Origin: Bacteriovoracaceae bacterium | GTDB lineage: Bacteria > Bdellovibrionota > Bacteriovoracia > Bacteriovoracales > Bacteriovoracaceae | Direction of reading: 5' to 3' | DNA: 64,000 nt | Assembly: GCA_025210745.1 (NCBI GenBank) | Contig: JAOARC010000038.1 | Coordinates: forward strand, 1 to 64,000 | In this document: piece by piece, positions 24,232-33,188 of the stretch | Layout of the letters: each line of letters begins with the position of its first letter | Numbering within the stretch: the stretch's first letter is position 1 | The notes under the pieces: generated by a model | What the model was told of the DNA's origin: nothing | Seen by the model: the letters and a program-made list of their open reading frames with translations, nothing else | The model's database searches: none | Position numbers and translations under genes: made by a program

Positions 24232-25977
24232 TTAATCATAATTATATTTCAAAGTTACATATGGTGTTCTTGAGTAATTTTTTTTCTTTAAAGTTTTTCT
24301 ACCAGTTTCACTAAAAAGATAAAGTTTATGTTTTGCTCTAGATGCAATAACATAAAGTAGTTTAGCAACTTCACGTGAAGTATCAATTGTATTATCGAAC
24401 ATAATTCCCCAATGGGGTAACATTCCTTCAAGTAGCCCAAATACAATTACAACAGCATACTCCTCTCCCTTAACTCCATGACAAGAGTTTATTACTACCC
24501 CTTCATTTTCTTCAAAGAAACTTTTAAAGACTAGAGTATTGTTAATAATATTGAAGTCTTGAACTTTCTTTTTACTCCCCTCAATAAACTTATCATGCTT
24601 TTCCTTTAAAATTGGAAAATCGTTCATGTTCTTATTTGTTAATACCTCTATAAGAGTACCAAAGGATTCTTGTAAATATTCAAACCCATCTTCTTTGTTG
24701 GAACGAGATTTATTTGCTTTTTCAAGAAAAGATAAGGTTGTCATTTCTTTAAGATCTTCTCTTCCAATAATATTAGAAAGTTCTGTAATAGCTTCTCTAG
24801 CCCACATATTTCTTCTTCTAAAATTTCGAGGAGAAGAATCTGTTAGAAATATTTTTGCAAAATAGAACCATACATTATCTCTATTTTTAGAAATTGGAGA
24901 TAATCCAGGAGAATCAATCGATATATGTGGGGCTTTAGCTTTAATATCTCTAGCAATTGGATTAACAAGATCCCATTTAGGAGCAATGATACAAATATCT
25001 GATTCTTTATACCCTTTAGAAGTTTCATTTTGTATAACTTTTATTATTTCATCACTTAATGACTCTTTAGATATAGAATAGTTGTACTTAATTACAGATT
25101 CCAGTTCCTTATCTATTTTTGTAACTATTTGTCCCCTCTTTCCCATTATATCAGAATAATAATCAATTATTTTTTGACTTGAACGATAACATCCATTCAG
25201 CTTTATTTCTAAGAATGTCCTATCGAGTAGATTGCTCAATTCATTTTTATGTAATACATATCCACCTAATGTTGTATAAATTGCTTGATCAGGATCTCCA
25301 ACAAAAGCAAACTTAGTCTCTGGTGATTGTTTTGCAATAAGGCCCATAATTTCATATTGCAAAACTTGGGTGTCTTGATATTCGTCTATAATTACCCAAT
25401 TAAACAATTTTGCTAAGAAACCACAAGCCCTAGGCTCTTCTTTTAAAAATTTAAAGCATATATAAATTAAAAAGTCATAATCTATTAGCTTATTCTTTTT
25501 CAATTCTTGATGATATTTACTCAATATCTTCAACTTTACAGAATTACTCTCTAGATACTGCCCCTTTATATTTAGTTTTGTATTTACACTTTCGTAATAT
25601 GGTATGCCTTCTTCTTTTTTGAACACATCCATTATACTACTTGCTTGAAACTCATCTGCTAACGTAAAACCATGTCTTAATTCTTCAATTTCAGACCTAA
25701 AACTTCTGGTTATCCACTCAAGGCAAAATGAATGGATAGTACCGATCCAGAGTTTTTTAGGTACCTCAACTAACTGGTTTACACGCTCTTTAACTTCTTC
25801 TGCTGCTCTATTTGTGAAAGTCAAGACTGCAATATGACCATTTAAATCTTCATTCTCAATCAATTTAATAACTTTTGAACATATAGCTCTCGTCTTACCA
25901 CTGCCAGGACAAGCGGTTACTAACACATCATCTTCACAGTTTACAAAGTCTAATTGTTCTTCATTTAATTTAATCAT
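24232..25977 (-). CDS. gajB: GajB-like UvrD/Rep-family helicase (Gabija defence)
   Basis: 581 residues with superfamily 1A motifs in order: ACPGSGKTRA (Walker A, about 22), TFTNRAAEEVKERV (Ia), VIIDEYQDTQ (II, about 194), FVGDPDQAIYT (III), INSCHGVKGEEY (V, about 507), YVIASRAKHKLY (VI). Its start overlaps the stop of the OLD-family nuclease by 4 nt. In Gabija, GajB binds and uses nucleotides and works with the GajA nuclease complex to block phage. About 90 residues longer than the first described GajB. It could also be called the helicase partner of a class 2 OLD nuclease. Confidence 0.8.
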   Translation of the reverse strand: MIKLNEEQLDFVNCEDDVLVTACPGSGKTRAICSKVIKLIENEDLNGHIAVLTFTNRAAEEVKERVNQLVEVPKKLWIGTIHSFCLEWITRSFRSEIEELRHGFTLADEFQASSIMDVFKKEEGIPYYESVNTKLNIKGQYLESNSVKLKILSKYHQELKKNKLIDYDFLIYICFKFLKEEPRACGFLAKLFNWVIIDEYQDTQVLQYEIMGLIAKQSPETKFAFVGDPDQAIYTTLGGYVLHKNELSNLLDRTFLEIKLNGCYRSSQKIIDYYSDIMGKRGQIVTKIDKELESVIKYNYSISKESLSDEIIKVIQNETSKGYKESDICIIAPKWDLVNPIARDIKAKAPHISIDSPGLSPISKNRDNVWFYFAKIFLTDSSPRNFRRRNMWAREAITELSNIIGREDLKEMTTLSFLEKANKSRSNKEDGFEYLQESFGTLIEVLTNKNMNDFPILKEKHDKFIEGSKKKVQDFNIINNTLVFKSFFEENEGVVINSCHGVKGEEYAVVIVFGLLEGMLPHWGIMFDNTIDTSREVAKLLYVIASRAKHKLYLFSETGRKTLKKKNYSRTPYVTLKYNYD

Positions 25978-28085
25978 GCTATGAAACTTAACAGCTTTGA
26001 CAGGTTATCGTCACTTTCAAAGACTTCTTTGTACTTAGTAATAACATTTTTTATTTCATTTTTACCGACTAATTCTTTTAATTCTAATATCTCATCAGTC
26101 TCTTCATGATGATTAAGAGAAAAAAGGATCATTTCTTTTAATAATTTCTCATTAAATTTGTTACCAGCTGAAAATGCAATAGCCTCAATAATATAACCTG
26201 GAATAAGAAACTTGTTATTAATTGTATTGGCAAGCTCAACTGCAAACCAACCTTTGCCTAGTTTATTTGCCATTCTTAATGATCTTCTACCGTAAACAGA
26301 AACTTCACTATCTTCGAGTTCATTATTAATTTGTTCAAGTTTACTAGAGTATGTGTCTTTGGCGATTTTTAAGAATGCTTCATTGTTATTCTCATGGAAC
26401 AGCAACTCAACTTCAAATGTATGATGAGCCAGGAAGTAGTTTACAAATTCATTTGACTTAAAATTTTCATCAAGAGCTTTAATTCTTGCGACACCTTTTT
26501 CCTGAGATTTTTTTTGTCTATTATAGAACTTAACCTCATTGGTATCTTTAGGGTCAGGAGGAGTATCTAAATCCAAAATGCTTGTATCCAAATCAGTTAT
26601 AATAGCACACCTTTTTTTTATGCGTTCACTTGAAAACAATACTGCAATATTATCAAAACCTGTCGAGCCTACATTGATTACACTAATCCCGATTTCATCT
26701 AATGTAATTCCTAAGCATTTTTTTATCATAGAAGGAATTAATATATGTTCAGCATCTCCTTCGACTAAAATCACACCTTTTGCAAATAGAAGATTTGTTC
26801 TTACAGCATCTAAGTATCTCTCAACCTTTGTAATAACTGGCTTAGTCAAGCCAGTTGAAGGGAAATAAATCTCAGAAGTGTTTTTCGCAGAACTCAGTAT
26901 ATTAACACTCGATATCCTAGATACAGAAGAAATATGTGTCGAATGAGTTGACACAAAAACTTGTGTGTTATCAGATTTGAGTTTACCAAAAAGAGTCTTT
27001 TGAATATGAGTGTGAATGTGTGCTTCAGGCTCTTCAATCAATAAAAAATGAGTAATCTTATCTTTTCTTTTCTGTTGTTCATATTCGAGTAATTTTATAG
27101 ATAAATAAACTAGATTCGCACCACCTAAACTTAAATCATCTAAGTACCCTTTGTGATCATCGTTTGGATCTCCTACCCATAGAGCTAATGATTGAAATAA
27201 TGAATTTAACTCATCCGGTACTTCAGATTTAACATCTATGGAAGGAGAATAAGAATGCCCTACAGAGGATAAGATTGTGGATTCAATTTCCCTTTTAACC
27301 TCTTTAATTGTTTCTAAAGATGTAATACTCTCATTTAATTCGACAACGTTATTACTAATAGCCTCTAAATCTGCATCACTTACTTCACTCTCAAGTCCCT
27401 CTAACAACTTTTTCAAGGGACTATATTTGGAGTATCGTAATTCTTTCACGGCATCTCTTAATGCTTTTATAAAGGTACAAGAAATTTGGTCAAATATTAC
27501 AAATTTTGCATTAGTATTCCCCCAAAGTTCATCATATAATTTATCGTCAGGGTCTGGGAATTTAAGACTCTCAAAGTCTCCCACATACTTTTTATAATTT
27601 TCATCATCAGAAAGATCAACAGATGCTCTGCAAATACACTTAAATTCATAGTCATCAATTGATAAGCTTGATAATAACTCTACTATCTTTTCATTTTCCG
27701 ATTCATTAGATAATTCATATAATGCTTTTCTAAACTCTAACTTTGGCCTAAACAAGTAAGTATAAGATCCCTTCTCTGGATCTTCTAACTTAGAAGTAGC
27801 ATAAGCCATTAATTTTTCACTTTCACTGTCACCAATTTCATCAAAAAATGATTGAATAACTATCCAATGGCCTTTCCAATCACTTATGGCTCTTGAAAAA
27901 TCTCCAACACTTAGTTTTCTGTTCCTATTTGGAATGGTGTCATCTAATAGCAATCTCATTGCTTGGAAAACATTTGTCTTACCTGAACCATTTTCTCCTA
28001 TAAGAGTATTTATTCCTTTTTTAAAAACAAAACTAGAATTTTTAAAATTCCTAAAATTTCTGATTACCAATTTTGTAATATACAA
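25974..28085 (-). CDS. gajA: GajA-like OLD-family ATPase/TOPRIM nuclease (Gabija defence)
   Basis: 703 residues. ABC-type ATPase: GENGSGKTN (Walker A, about 31-39), signature region SLGGANLVYL (about 317), LLIEEPEAHIHTH (Walker B, about 346), STHSTHIS (H-loop). TOPRIM domain: ILVEGDAEHILIPS (about 446) and TDLDTSILDLD (about 493). Paired with a UvrD-like helicase, this defines class 2 OLD, the GajA type, a DNA endonuclease restrained by nucleotides and released when phage lowers NTP levels. Longer than the original GajA of about 578 residues, mainly between the ATPase halves. Promoter probably in the 195-bp spacer shared with the divergent gene at 28280. Confidence 0.8.
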   Translation of the reverse strand: MYITKLVIRNFRNFKNSSFVFKKGINTLIGENGSGKTNVFQAMRLLLDDTIPNRNRKLSVGDFSRAISDWKGHWIVIQSFFDEIGDSESEKLMAYATSKLEDPEKGSYTYLFRPKLEFRKALYELSNESENEKIVELLSSLSIDDYEFKCICRASVDLSDDENYKKYVGDFESLKFPDPDDKLYDELWGNTNAKFVIFDQISCTFIKALRDAVKELRYSKYSPLKKLLEGLESEVSDADLEAISNNVVELNESITSLETIKEVKREIESTILSSVGHSYSPSIDVKSEVPDELNSLFQSLALWVGDPNDDHKGYLDDLSLGGANLVYLSIKLLEYEQQKRKDKITHFLLIEEPEAHIHTHIQKTLFGKLKSDNTQVFVSTHSTHISSVSRISSVNILSSAKNTSEIYFPSTGLTKPVITKVERYLDAVRTNLLFAKGVILVEGDAEHILIPSMIKKCLGITLDEIGISVINVGSTGFDNIAVLFSSERIKKRCAIITDLDTSILDLDTPPDPKDTNEVKFYNRQKKSQEKGVARIKALDENFKSNEFVNYFLAHHTFEVELLFHENNNEAFLKIAKDTYSSKLEQINNELEDSEVSVYGRRSLRMANKLGKGWFAVELANTINNKFLIPGYIIEAIAFSAGNKFNEKLLKEMILFSLNHHEETDEILELKELVGKNEIKNVITKYKEVFESDDNLSKLLSFIA

Positions 28086-28279
28086 TTAAAACTCCTAAAG
28101 TGATTCATTTAAGTGGGATAAATTCTTTTCGGAATTAACTCATATAAATAAAGAGAAAATTTACTTAAACTATTGAATCTTCATCTATCTCGAAGCTAGT
28201 TCTGATTAATATCTATACAAATAAAAATTAATCTTTTATCAAACTTGAACAAGTCTGACTAAAGCGATACATCATAAAA

Positions 28280-28933
28280 ATGAAATATAATAAGAATTGG
28301 GAAGACATGTCAGAATTTCTAATCCACTTCGCCAAAGGACCAGATCAGGATTCAGCGTACAATGCGATTATGGGAATTCTTTTTGACCAACAGATTAAGG
28401 TAATGAATCCATTTGGATTTGCAAAAAAATATGCGACCGATAAAGAGAATCAAAAATCTGTATGCCTTAGCGAGACTCCTCTTCATTTACTTGAAAGGAT
28501 ATCACAACGAAGAGGCCCCTATGGTATTGGATTTACAAAATCATTTATAACAAGCAAAGGTGGTAACCCTATCTTATATGCCCAGGCTAATGGCCCTCTA
28601 TTTGAGGGACTTGAAAAATTAACACATATAAGCTTAAGCCAAGGAGGTGAACTAGAAGAATCTTTTTGGAAAATTGCACCCTTCATAGACCAAGTTATTA
28701 GCAAACCCAACAAAAGGTACCAATTTGACTGGGAAAGAGAATGGAGAATAAATGAAAATTTAAACTTCAAAGTTACTGATGTTGAATTCTTGATTATCCC
28801 AGAAGATCTCCATGAAGCAGCAGAAGGATTCTTTCTAGATGCTGAAGTTGATAACACGGGACCTAGTTACAAATGCCCATTGATAGATATCCATTGGAGT
28901 CTAGACAAAATCAGAAATACTTTATCTAAGTAG
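28280..28933 (+). CDS. AbiGi/DUF2971-like protein, possible defence gene
   Basis: 217 residues. SVCLSETPLHLLERIS, then YGIGFTKSFI and NPILYAQ, and later WEREWRI. This set resembles the putative abortive-infection AbiGi family and the related DUF2971 proteins, whose activity is unclear. No signal peptide or membrane segment. It is divergent from gajA across 195 bp and lies inside the island, so a defence link is likely but not shown. Could be an accessory gene of the Gabija locus or an independent unit. Confidence 0.5.
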   Translation: MKYNKNWEDMSEFLIHFAKGPDQDSAYNAIMGILFDQQIKVMNPFGFAKKYATDKENQKSVCLSETPLHLLERISQRRGPYGIGFTKSFITSKGGNPILYAQANGPLFEGLEKLTHISLSQGGELEESFWKIAPFIDQVISKPNKRYQFDWEREWRINENLNFKVTDVEFLIIPEDLHEAAEGFFLDAEVDNTGPSYKCPLIDIHWSLDKIRNTLSK

Positions 28934-29030
28934 TTTCCCTCTGTCCCCTACAAAAAGAAGAACAAACACTTAGTCATTTCGGATATTTTTAAAATGACAC
29001 TTTTACTAATAAATCAACTAAAGGTTATAT

Positions 29031-30095
29031 TTAACTCAACTTTTCCATAAAAACTTCTTTAGTTAAGATTTCCATTTCTGGATCACTCAGTAGTGCTTTT
29101 GAATCATCTAGTTTCCTTAGAAGAACATCGATGTTTCTCTTTTCGAGTGAATTGGAAGTAATAAGGAAATAGTAGTCGACCTCCTTACTTTGCCCTCTTC
29201 GATGAATTCTATCAAGACTTTGCAAAAAATGTGCTGTTTGATTAGACATAGACTCATATATTGCACTTCTAGCAGAGTGAAGCGTCACGCCTGCTCCAGC
29301 TGCTGCTGGATTAGCTATAATTAAATTATAGTTTTCATTTTCTTGAAACTTAGTAACAATTTCTCCTCTCTCTTCTGTAGAATTAATGGAACCATCAAAT
29401 CGGAGAGGGTTATATTTTTTAAAATAGTTCATCATAAAATCAATAGATTTTCGATAAAATGACCATATAATAACTTTCTCAGATTTTTTTATGATCAACT
29501 CATTAAGTAGTTTTTCAATTTCCTTAACTTTCGCAGGAACTTCGCTATAGCTCTCATCTACTGCTATTGGGTTTGAGCATATTTGCAATAAGTAGGCTCT
29601 CTTGGCGAGAAAACTGGTAATACTTTTTCTGAATTGTTCTTGAGATGTATTATTTAATTTCTGAATCACTTCATCATGAACTTTATCATATATCTCACGC
29701 TGACAACTTTCCATTTCAATATGCATCTTGTGGATTGTTCTTCCTGGTAAAGAAAGAACCTCCTCCTTAGTTTGCCTAAGATAAAGTGCTCGACTCTCTA
29801 CAACTTTAACTATTTCCTCATAAGACAATTTTGAAAAGGAATTGGAAAAAGCTTCTCCCCCATCTGCAAGATTTATCTGTTCGACTATATCCATTGCAGA
29901 GTTAGGAGCTGGCGTTCCACACAACACAAGACATCTTTTCACAAGCGGTCTAAGATAAAATATGTCTTTTGTTCTTTTTGCATCCGCATCTTTATAATAA
30001 AAGCTTTCGTCGACTATTAGTAAGAAATCATGTGATTTCTTACTAAGTAATTTTTCAAAATGATTTCTCACGCTGGAGATTGATTCAAAGTTAGT
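29031..30095 (-). pseudogene. SNF2-family helicase, C-terminal half only
   Basis: 346 residues from a GTG at 30071. The sequence begins just before motif II (LLIVDESFYY), then CGTPAPNS (III), RQTKEEVLSLPG, IIWSFYRKS (IV), NPAAAGAGVTLHSA (V), LDRIHRRGQS (VI). Motifs I and Ia, meaning the ATP-binding half of RecA domain 1, are missing. The frame stays open only to 30095 before a stop, so the N-terminal part is not present in another frame here. Without Walker A it cannot work as a translocase. It ends the defence island 24 nt from the prfC region, suggesting a truncation when the island was trimmed. Confidence 0.8.
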
Positions 30096-30118: not shown

Positions 30119-31768
30119 ATGTTACACTCAAAATTTAAAAATACTCAAGGAACAAAAATGCCCCAAGAAAACAAAAGGTGCACATTCGCAATCATCTCCC
30201 ACCCCGATGCAGGTAAAACAACTGTTACAGAAAAACTCCTATGGTTTGGAGGAGTTGTTCGTGAAGCAGGAATGGTAAAATCTAAATCAGGGGATTTTGC
30301 TAAATCAGACTGGATGCAAATGGAACAAGACAGAGGAATCTCTATTACATCTTCTGTTATGAGTTATCACTATAACAACAGAGCTGTTCACCTACTAGAT
30401 ACTCCTGGGCACAAGGACTTTTCTGAAGATACATATAGAACATTAACTGCTGTTGAATCTGTTCTTATGATGATCGATGGAGCAAAGGGTGTTGAGGGAC
30501 AAACTGAAAAATTAATGGACGTTTGTCGTCTAAGAGATACTCCTGTTACAACATTTATAAATAAGTTTGATCGTGATGCTATGGATCCATTTGAGCTAAT
30601 TGATAATATTGAAAAAAAATTATCTATTCAGTGTGTGCCTATGACATGGCCTATTGGTGATGGAGTTGAATTTAAAGGTGTATATGATTTTAAAACAAAA
30701 GTGATTAGATCTTTTTCAGATAAGACGGATCCATTTAATCCAAGCATAGTGGATGCTAGTGATCTAGACTCTCCTAGTCTTTTAGAATTTATGAGTGAAC
30801 ATCTTTTAGAAAAACTAAAAGAAGATCTTTTAATGGTAGAAGAGCTAATTGAGCCATTTAATGAAGAGCTATATCTTGAAGGAATTCAAACTCCCGTATT
30901 TTTTGGATCAGCTCTTTATAACTTTGGAGTAAAAGAAGTTTTAGATATGATTACTAATCATGCTCCTGGACCAAAAAACAGAGAAGTAAAACTTGCTCCT
31001 TTTGAAATTGATAGTGACAAAAGAGTTGTTAATATAGATGAAAAGAAGTTCACAGGCTTTATCTTTAAGATACAAGCTAATATGGATAAAAAACACAGAG
31101 ATAGAATCGCATTTATGAGAATCTGTTCTGGTGTGTTTAAAAGAAATACAAAATATCTTCATGTAAGATCGCAAAAAGAAATGAAATTTCCAACGCCTCA
31201 GTTTTTTCAAGCTCAAGATAGAGAACTAGCTGAAACAGCTTATCCAGGAGATATTGTTGGTCTTCACGACAGTGGAAAGTTTCAAATTGGAGATACATTT
31301 TCTGAAGGTGAAAAGATTCAATACACAGGAATTCCTTCATTTGCCCCAGAGCTTTTTAAAACCGTAACATTAAAAGATCCACTTAAAGCAAAGCATCTTG
31401 AAAAAGGTCTTAGACAATTATCTGAAGAAGGAGCTACTCAGCTTTTCATTAGAGATATTGGCGGAACTAAAATGCTTGGAGCCGTTGGTGCCCTTCAATT
31501 TGAGGTTGTAAAATTTAGACTTGAAGATGAATACAATGTTAGGGCCGATTATGAAGGAACTCCATTTATAGGAGTTAGATGGTTAAGGTTTTCTGATAAA
31601 AAAGCTGAAGATACTTTTAAGTCAAACTATGGATCAAATATGATGGTCGATGGCAAAGATAGAATCTGTTATGGAGTTAAATCTGATTGGGATTTAAAGC
31701 TTTGTATGGAAAAGAATCCTGAGGTTAAGTTTTATAAAAACTCGGATTATATTGAAAATCATCACTAA
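30119..31768 (+). CDS. prfC: Peptide chain release factor 3 (RF3)
   Basis: GTPase that removes RF1/RF2 from the ribosome after termination. SHPDAGKTT (G1), MEQDRGISITSS (G2), DTPGHKDF (G3), NKFDRDA (G4), followed by RF3 domains II and III. The better start is the ATG at 30158 (MPQENKRCTFAIISHPDAG), which has an AAGGA box 6-9 nt before it and matches the family N-terminus; the upstream ATG at 30119 adds 13 residues. This gives about 536 residues, normal for RF3. Followed by a hairpin terminator. Confidence 0.95.
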   Translation: MLHSKFKNTQGTKMPQENKRCTFAIISHPDAGKTTVTEKLLWFGGVVREAGMVKSKSGDFAKSDWMQMEQDRGISITSSVMSYHYNNRAVHLLDTPGHKDFSEDTYRTLTAVESVLMMIDGAKGVEGQTEKLMDVCRLRDTPVTTFINKFDRDAMDPFELIDNIEKKLSIQCVPMTWPIGDGVEFKGVYDFKTKVIRSFSDKTDPFNPSIVDASDLDSPSLLEFMSEHLLEKLKEDLLMVEELIEPFNEELYLEGIQTPVFFGSALYNFGVKEVLDMITNHAPGPKNREVKLAPFEIDSDKRVVNIDEKKFTGFIFKIQANMDKKHRDRIAFMRICSGVFKRNTKYLHVRSQKEMKFPTPQFFQAQDRELAETAYPGDIVGLHDSGKFQIGDTFSEGEKIQYTGIPSFAPELFKTVTLKDPLKAKHLEKGLRQLSEEGATQLFIRDIGGTKMLGAVGALQFEVVKFRLEDEYNVRADYEGTPFIGVRWLRFSDKKAEDTFKSNYGSNMMVDGKDRICYGVKSDWDLKLCMEKNPEVKFYKNSDYIENHH

Positions 31769-31786: not shown

Positions 31787-31815
31787 CCGCTAGTAAAACT
31801 CTAGCGGCTTTTATA
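31787..31815 (+). terminator. prfC intrinsic terminator
   Basis: CCGCTAG (31787-31793) pairs with CTAGCGG (31801-31807), followed by CTTTTAT. Located 18 nt after the prfC stop. Confidence 0.75.
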
Positions 31816-31950
31816 CGCTCCAATGCTCATTCAAGTACTTGCTATCGACTTTCGTCGAAATAATAAATACTGCAAATATATAGAGAATCATCACTAAATC
31901 AACAACTTACAAAGCTTTATTTAAAATTTAAAAACTGATACAATATAAAA

Positions 31951-32160
31951 GTGAATTAGGTGCAAGTAGTGCTCGACACACTACCTGCTAAAGTCTTATC
32001 TACAAAGCTCTATTACTACAGCGGCTAACTGAAGTAATATTGCGATAAGATTCAACACCCTAATCACGTCTTCCATAACTAAGCCTTTTGTTGGAAAAGG
32101 CGAGCATCAGTGCTCGTCACGGAAGATTTAAGTTTAATAGCTTAAATCTTCTAGGAAGAC
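31951..32160. ncRNA. Candidate structured RNA, two adjacent multibranch domains
   Basis: The 433-bp gap between prfC and korB holds no protein frame but dense complementarity. Domain 1 is closed by 31951-31962 with 32056-32067 (11 bp, two bulges) and contains hairpins at 31962-31988 and 31994-32050. Domain 2, directly adjacent, is closed by GTCTTCC (32068-32074) with GGAAGAC (32154-32160) and contains perfect hairpins at 32083-32101, 32101-32116 and 32122-32151 (11 bp). No match to tmRNA, RNase P, 6S or SRP RNA was recognised. The strand is undetermined. Confidence 0.4.
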
Positions 32161-32201
32161 TCCTCTTGCATGCACAATATTAAATTTATTTCAATTTTGA
32201 A

Positions 32202-33188
32202 CTATACTTGCCAAGTATTAGCAGACTCTAAAAGCTGTTGAATACTTTGATCATTCTTTTGAGCGGCAATCTGAGTGTTCACATCTTGCTCATAGCTTGT
32301 AATATCTTCTTTTGTATATAAAGTTCCAATAGCAACTGGAAGCTCATCATTTTTTTGCGTAAGAAGCTGAGATAAAATTTTATTATGCTTATCAAAAGTT
32401 ACAATTTTATCTTCGTTACCATCAAGTACAACTACTTTTAGATTAAATCCATCCATGATAATTCCCTTATCCTTATCTTTTCCAAAAATAAGTTTTTCAC
32501 CATGAACGCACCTTATTGAATGATCATCTCTAGTAGCTCTATTTGTATAAGCATCATGAACCTTATCATTAAAGATTACACAATTTTGATATACTTCTAT
32601 TACAGAGCATCCTTTGTGCTTGGAAGCTTCTATAAAAGTTTCCATCATATGTTTAGGATCTGTATCGATCGTTCTAGCAAAATAAGTCGATCCTGATCCC
32701 ATTACAAAGTCAGCGGGATTAAATGGATGATCTACACTTCCATAAGGAGTAGATTTCGTTTTAATTCCTTCTTTTGAAGTTGGAGAATATTGTCCCTTAG
32801 TTAGGCCATAGATTTCATTATTAAATAAAATAAGATTCACATCTACATTTCTTCTAATAATATGAGCAAGGTGATTTCCACCAATACTTAGTCCATCACC
32901 GTCCCCTGTTATAAGCCAAACACTAAGATCTGGATTTTGAACCTTAAGGCCTGTCGCAAAAGCTGGCGCTCTTCCATGAATGGTATGCATCCCATAAGTT
33001 CCCATATAATAAGGAAATCTTGATGAACACCCAATACCTGAAATAACAGCTGTATTATGAGGTGCTACTCCTATTTTTGCCATCGCCTGTTGAACACTTG
33101 ATAAAATAGCATAGTCACCACAACCAGGACACCATTTAACTTGTTGATCAGAAGCAAAATCTTTTTTCTTATAAACTACATCACTCAT
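32202..33188 (-). CDS. korB: 2-oxoacid:ferredoxin oxidoreductase, beta subunit (KorB type)
   Basis: 328 residues. Thiamine-diphosphate subunit: WCPGCGDYAIL (N-terminal Cys pair), GIGCSSRFPYY, VWLITGDGDGLSIGGNHLAH and the LILFNNEIYGLTKGQYSPT segment, all as in KorB. With KorA it oxidatively decarboxylates 2-oxoglutarate (or a related 2-oxoacid) to the acyl-CoA and reduces ferredoxin, replacing the dehydrogenase complex step of the TCA cycle. One nucleotide after the korA stop, so cotranscribed. Substrate assignment rests on family resemblance. Confidence 0.9.
   Translation of the reverse strand: MSDVVYKKKDFASDQQVKWCPGCGDYAILSSVQQAMAKIGVAPHNTAVISGIGCSSRFPYYMGTYGMHTIHGRAPAFATGLKVQNPDLSVWLITGDGDGLSIGGNHLAHIIRRNVDVNLILFNNEIYGLTKGQYSPTSKEGIKTKSTPYGSVDHPFNPADFVMGSGSTYFARTIDTDPKHMMETFIEASKHKGCSVIEVYQNCVIFNDKVHDAYTNRATRDDHSIRCVHGEKLIFGKDKDKGIIMDGFNLKVVVLDGNEDKIVTFDKHNKILSQLLTQKNDELPVAIGTLYTKEDITSYEQDVNTQIAAQKNDQSIQQLLESANTWQV

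Follow-up and report, generated by a model that had tools for sequence, protein, structure and literature searches.

The element at positions 31951-32160 of the window (the whole stretch of 64,000 nucleotides from a Bacteriovoracaceae bacterium that was analyzed) is probably one copy of a type I toxin-antitoxin-like module, and it probably works as such systems do. It belongs to a multicopy unit that combines a tiny hydrophobic peptide, an mRNA predicted to be locked against translation, and a predicted antisense promoter that overlaps it, and this combination is the architecture of a type I toxin-antitoxin module. From this layout we infer that both strands are transcribed, that the antisense RNA acts as a repressor, and that the peptide is toxic. 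Type I toxins are too short for gene callers, and this makes such modules hard to find.

The element sits between prfC, which ends at 31768, and korB, which is encoded on the minus strand and ends at 32202. Both names are retained from an earlier sequence-only reading and are presumably right, since the translations look right. A separate terminator-like hairpin for prfC lies at 31787-31807, apart from the element. Read on the plus strand, 31951-32160 folds into two back-to-back multiloops with −75.5 kcal/mol, compared to −42.8 ± 4.2 kcal/mol for dinucleotide shuffles (z = −7.9), and none of 200 shuffles was as stable. The predicted fold of the minus strand reaches −78.0 kcal/mol. The sequence-only reading had described a densely folded 210-nt structure that belongs to no known RNA class, and both points are borne out, the first by the shuffles and the second by Rfam, which gave no matches in the window at the gathering threshold and only a chance-level best match (E 2.2) in a permissive scan. 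A tRNA or tmRNA identity was tried for the element and rejected. 6S RNA (RF00013) was rejected as well, being present in 15 of 16 genomes at sites other than the element, as was a c-di-GMP-I riboswitch or Bdellovibrio merRNA-like RNA (RF01051), which matched in none of 16 genomes of the bacterial family. To the left of prfC, the large minus-strand open reading frames (ORFs) at 25974-30071 of the window resemble, on visual inspection, an OLD-type ATPase/nuclease and an SNF2-like helicase fragment, and are possibly a defence island.

The element had been tied to the prfC-korB spacer, and this does not hold, as it is one of four copies in its own genome (contigs C16, C19, C31 and C43). A DNA search of relatives found more copies in three further genomes (G001, G010 and G016). 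The copies occupy intergenic gaps without conserved partners, and in G016 the prfC-korB order is kept while the spacer holds two unrelated small genes and not the element. The arrangement is thus not conserved, and both a cis-regulatory role for prfC or korB and a syntenic locus were rejected. A covariance model built from 19 copies gave 97 matches in 34 of the 129 genomes of the order, covering 11 of 48 genera and all within one bacterial family, and none in the remaining ~240 genomes of a 369-genome sample of the phylum. Positive genomes carry 1-10 copies, and tandem head-to-tail copies with a spacing of ~300-490 bp occur in six of them (G016, G041, G119, G123, G132 and G138). Records with the motif come from Bacteriovoracaceae, Halobacteriovoraceae, and other Oligoflexia and Bdellovibrionales. 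Lachnospiraceae and similar matches to a genome-wide DNA pattern were rejected as chance, because the model gives none or a weak 22.6 bits for those checked. Phage and plasmid records gave no DNA or peptide match, and pattern matches in IMG/VR are not true members. A phage or plasmid origin was thus rejected, with no true member in the phage, plasmid and viral collections.

The stretch had been read as having no coding frame, which was wrong. A conserved ORF of 26 codons plus stop lies on the minus strand (32076-31996) and encodes MEDVIRVLNLIAILLQLAAVVIELCR, a hydrophobic, candidate type I toxin-like peptide; the typical peptide in one genus is MEEMIRVLTLIILLLQLAVILRMN. The near-invariant TCTTCCAT of the family, which reads ATGGAAGA on the minus strand, is the start codon followed by Glu-Asp/Glu. 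The ORF is found at the equivalent place in 80 of the 86 copies examined and is intact in ~75. Most copies have AAAGG or AAGGA a few nucleotides upstream of the ATG, and a Shine-Dalgarno (SD) sequence is present in 62 of 66 distinct copies, in the window as AAAAGG at 32084-32089, 7 nt before the ATG. Over 270 pairs, codon positions 1, 2 and 3 take 31, 18 and 51% of the differences, and changed codons score 1.86 on average by BLOSUM in the ORF frame, compared to −1.32 to 0.94 in the other five. Judged by these sequence comparisons, the substitution pattern of the ORF is of the coding type. A few copies have decayed by a deletion, a frameshift or loss of the start codon. Among them is L010, one of the four in the own genome, which lacks the ATG.

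The 66 distinct peptides have a median length of 24 amino acids and a mean GRAVY of 1.74 from residue 5 onward. Type I toxins are small (<60 amino acids) and usually hydrophobic, and the predicted peptides share this size and hydrophobicity. A peptide profile run against the 369 genomes matched in 31, all of them RNA-positive and at essentially the same sites. It also detected a further peptide copy that the RNA model missed (G071:C17:115514-115582). TisB was the sole toxin family touched in either Pfam (PF13939, 11.4-12.7 bits against a curated cut-off of 25) or NCBIfam (TIGR04459, 12.9-13.8 bits against a cut-off of 38), and five of the seven tested peptides gave no TisB match. Neither collection gave a match to Ibs or to an AapA family.

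The coding, hydrophobicity and SD evidence would also fit a non-toxic, regulated small membrane protein that modulates a membrane partner, in which case the mRNA structure and the antisense RNA would only set its level. In favor of this reading, the toxicity of the peptide is a prediction, and the copies often lie near surface-polysaccharide genes. However, copies that are multiple, tandem, patchily distributed and in part decayed, together with the tight translational lock described below, suit toxin modules better than a protein with a fixed partner, and a non-toxin of this kind is considered unlikely.

Each copy examined in the own genome and in relatives has the same two-domain fold. Compensatory changes in homologs, which the sequence-only reading had named as a check, were found at 31 of 55 pairs in the training alignment (A1, 19 copies), where the covariation score is 0.281 compared to 0.121 for shuffled alignments and at most 0.116 for slid structures. 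An independent alignment (A4) comprised 28 copies from outside the model, aligned with MAFFT and folded with RNAalifold without the model. It recovered de novo the outer stem with its adjacent hairpin, the apical stem, and the hairpin of the second domain; of 27 pairs, 16 are changed on both sides.

In the window, all of these helices are described on the minus strand. The outer long-range stem (helix 1) has its 3′ strand at 31951-31960, which pairs with codons 4-6 at 32059-32067; it shows compensatory changes and is among the stems recovered in A4. A 3′ UTR hairpin with G.U pairs lies at 31962-31988 (helix 2), and seven of its nine pairs are changed on both sides. The anti-SD/SD hairpin GCCUUUUCCAACAAAAGGC (helix 5) occupies 32083-32101 with 92.6% of cells paired. 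A second 5′ UTR hairpin, CGAGCACUGAUGCUCG at 32101-32116 (helix 6), has 98.5% of cells paired, shows compensatory changes and also appears de novo in A4. The 5′ strand UCUUCCGUGAC at 32116-32126 (helix 4) is the partner of GUUAUGGAAGA over the start codon, and its A.C cells become G.U on the minus strand. The closing helix of the second domain is near-invariant, so its support comes from conservation and G.U exchange and not from covariation. The second multiloop had been drawn as closed by 32154-32160, which proves to be one of two options: AGGAAGAC at 32153-32160 is an alternative partner for the start-codon strand, while the family as a whole uses GGAAGA at 32121-32126. Only the window copy has the long hairpin near 32120-32150.

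In RNA helices, G.U pairs are expected to be commoner than A.C mismatches. When the helix cells are read on the plus strand, A.C outnumbers G.U by 76 to 32 in the training set (A1) and by 172 to 92 in a larger alignment of 56 copies (A3), and by 41 to 2 in the 3′ hairpin (helix 2). In addition, the minus strand is the more stable in 17 of 19 copies, with a mean of −64.7 kcal/mol compared to −54.0 kcal/mol for the plus strand. Because A.C exceeds G.U on the plus strand and the minus strand folds more stably, the RNA that folds and functions is most likely that of the minus strand. As a lesson of method, when A.C is more frequent than G.U in a “covarying RNA”, the opposite strand should be read. 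A plus-strand family of sRNA genes with its own promoter was the first reading of the data and was dropped after this count. The undescribed-looking RNA of the sequence-only reading thus stands in part: it is real, covaries and matches no class, but the idea of a stand-alone non-coding RNA on the plus strand does not hold. A dispersed family of small plus-strand non-coding RNA genes, with the minus-strand ORF as a by-product of symmetry, could account for the promoter on that strand and for the fact that the plus strand folds well too, but the excess of A.C, the better folding of the minus strand, the codon-position pattern and frame score, and an SD that keeps its place before the ATG make it very improbable.

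The fold of the minus strand is predicted to bury the signals for translation. Averaged over 66 distinct copies, the SD has a pairing probability of 0.90 compared to 0.59 with shuffled flanks, and the AUG has 0.91 compared to 0.64, with 0.70 for the AUG of the window copy. In the window, the SD lies inside the hairpin at 32083-32101, and either 32116-32126 or, as an alternative, 32153-32160 covers the AUG. By these folding models, the SD and AUG are predicted to be hidden in hairpins in nearly all copies. A structurally blocked toxin mRNA is a common, though not universal, trait of type I systems, and the predicted pairing of SD and AUG agrees with it.

The opposite strand carries a sigma-70-like promoter, often with an extended −10, which ends a few nucleotides before the outer stem. 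Over 79 copies, the mean promoter match on this plus strand is 8.90 compared to 7.90 ± 0.09 in shuffles, and it has one preferred position. In the window, the extended −10 TGATACAAT of the predicted antisense promoter lies at 31936-31944 with a predicted start at ~31950; the −35 is weak in this copy, and its promoter taken alone does not rise above chance in a simple scan. From the promoter position, a predicted antisense (antitoxin) RNA would run on the plus strand from 31950 to 32130, at least across the ORF and ribosome-binding site (RBS). A plus-strand transcript would be antisense to the whole mRNA and fully complementary to it. The peptide strand shows no sigma-70 promoter enrichment (8.14 compared to 8.26), and a sigma-70 promoter for the peptide mRNA was rejected for this lack of enrichment.

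In the proposed mechanism, the minus strand would be transcribed into a compact mRNA with a strong fold. It would encode a hydrophobic peptide of ~24-27 residues, which is predicted to be placed in the inner membrane. An anti-SD hairpin would hide the Shine-Dalgarno sequence, a strand of the 5′ UTR would hide the AUG, and a 5′-3′ stem would bind the early codons to the 3′ end. With the SD and AUG hidden and the 5′-3′ stem formed, the full-length mRNA should be poorly translated. The sigma-70-type promoter on the plus strand, just past the 3′ end of the mRNA, would yield an antisense RNA that reads back across the entire ORF and the RBS, and this RNA would silence the mRNA through duplex formation and RNase III cleavage. 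If the supply of antisense RNA failed, or if the mRNA were refolded or processed, the peptide would be made and the membrane disturbed.

Conserved spacing runs beyond 32160, where the end of the element had been set, to a box at 32189-32201. This box, TTTCAATTTTGAA, is the counterpart of the palindrome TTTCAnnnnTGAAA of the family. In 44 of 69 copies, compared to 6.9 in shuffles, TGAAA is found at +45 to +95 from the end of the core, mostly at +68 or +80. The distance of TTTCAnnnnTGAAA is fixed though the intervening sequence is not conserved, and where found, the box mostly lies at −123 to −138 relative to the ATG. The recA upstream regions of seven genomes lack the TTTCAnnnnTGAAA box; LexA control of the box was rejected on this ground, and SOS control is unsupported. 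The recA upstream regions of five genomes (L239, L240, L241, L243 and L245) share the direct repeat TTCCGTAA..TTTTCCGTAA, and those of two others, G100 and G041 (L242 and L244), hold CTTACGCA..CTTACGCA. These repeats are candidate lineage-specific SOS boxes.

Several known type I systems resemble the module in part. Ibs/Sib of Escherichia coli, which exists in five copies, was first noticed as a ~140-nt repeat and has a tiny hydrophobic peptide opposite an antisense RNA that spans the whole ORF and RBS, as is predicted here, and Ldr and Ibs/Sib are likewise multicopy and tandem (PMC4147584). Unlike Ibs/Sib, to which Pfam, NCBIfam and Rfam gave no sequence relation, the mRNA here folds into two domains and is longer, and both its SD and its AUG are predicted to be buried. 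AapA/IsoA of Helicobacter pylori has several chromosomal copies, a peptide of ~30 amino acids and an antisense RNA opposite the ORF, and the AapA mRNA is inert through a 5′-3′ long-distance interaction and SD-sequestering hairpins (PMC6733600). The module shares with it the multiple copies and small peptide and, by prediction, the opposite-strand antisense RNA and the 5′-3′ mRNA lock. However, the 3′ end pairs with the SD in AapA/IsoA, whereas here it would pair with codons 4-6 while a local hairpin holds the SD. TisB/IstR-1 and Zor/Orz of E. coli have peptides of a similar kind (29 residues) and a structurally sequestered RBS (PMC7708055), and zor/orz has been found as tandem copies (PMC11264685); the module also has tandem copies and a predicted sequestered RBS. 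The pairing sites of IstR-1 and Orz lie far upstream of the RBS, whereas the predicted antisense RNA here would overlap the ORF, and tisB is LexA-controlled, whereas the box here is absent from the recA promoters of the same genomes. By layout, the closest systems are Ibs/Sib and AapA/IsoA, and by peptide flavor TisB, at scores below the cut-off. The module is not a member of TisB or of any named family.

Most likely, the module represents a new family within a known kind of system, the type I toxin-antitoxin modules. The bacteria that carry it belong to a mostly predatory group, in which dormancy and control of the membrane play a central role. Within the literature that was searched, the family is apparently the first of type I seen in the phylum: full-text searches found no type I module for Bdellovibrio or Bdellovibrionota. 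According to a 2025 paper, type I modules are known only from Proteobacteria, Firmicutes and Tenericutes (PMC12390103). A more specific and decidedly tentative proposal is that of an undescribed type I family, confined to Bacteriovoracaceae-type bacteria, with a triple translation lock (anti-SD hairpin, buried AUG and 5′-3′ stem), with a dedicated control box, TTTCAnnnnTGAAA at a fixed distance, in place of a sigma-70-like toxin promoter, and in some genomes with mobilization by a RAYT-like transposase into surface-polysaccharide islands; in predators, such a family might contribute to dormancy, to phage defence or to the attack/growth switch. The ~97 covarying copies offer a comparative model for the co-evolution of toxin mRNA folding, start-codon burial and antisense control.

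Copies of the family are unusually often found in or beside surface-polysaccharide clusters compared to control regions (L009, L012, L013, L018, L073-L081, L084 and L088). Among the neighbors within 3.5 kb, NAD-epimerases number 10 of 139, compared to 2 of 125 for control regions from the same genomes, and glycosyltransferases of group 1 and family 2 number 7 and 6, with controls at no more than 1 each; these counts are not independent, because some of the loci are orthologous.

Some copies adjoin genes for Y1 (RAYT-like) transposases. A MITE/REP-like mobile element, whose palindromes would serve as single-stranded DNA for such an enzyme, would account for the copy, Y1 gene and inverted repeats that form one unit in G100, for the Y1 gene next to a copy in G071, and for the inverted repeats around copies in G016 and G121. 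However, significant flanking inverted repeats are found at few of 68 copies, Y1 genes are not commoner in positive genomes (15 of 34 compared to 47 of 95), and the coding selection and positioned promoter would be left unexplained. As the main explanation, a mobile element of this kind is disfavored and has very little probability, while mobility of some copies is compatible with the toxin-antitoxin reading. Similarity to a transposon end, named earlier as a possible refutation, applies to a few copies elsewhere and not to the window copy, which has no significant inverted repeats. In the G100 unit (L199 4235-5370; G100:C13, ~501.2-502.4 kb), the copy is followed by the Y1_Tnp gene and bounded by the inverted repeats AGGTACGCGGTTACTTTTCG and CGAAAAGTAACCGCGTACCT, with the right end doubled, and this is apparently a mobile unit that carries the peptide module. 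In G071 (L207 1684-2404; G071:C21, ~202.2-202.9 kb), the copy adjoins a Y1_Tnp gene in the opposite orientation. At three loci in G016 (L016, L014 and L015) and one in G121 (L089), an inverted repeat, GGTACNCGCTTCCTTTTCGC or GCCAAAAGGTATGCCGTACCTTTTGGC, flanks the copy on at least one side, and the inverted repeat of G016 is also present at sites without the module.
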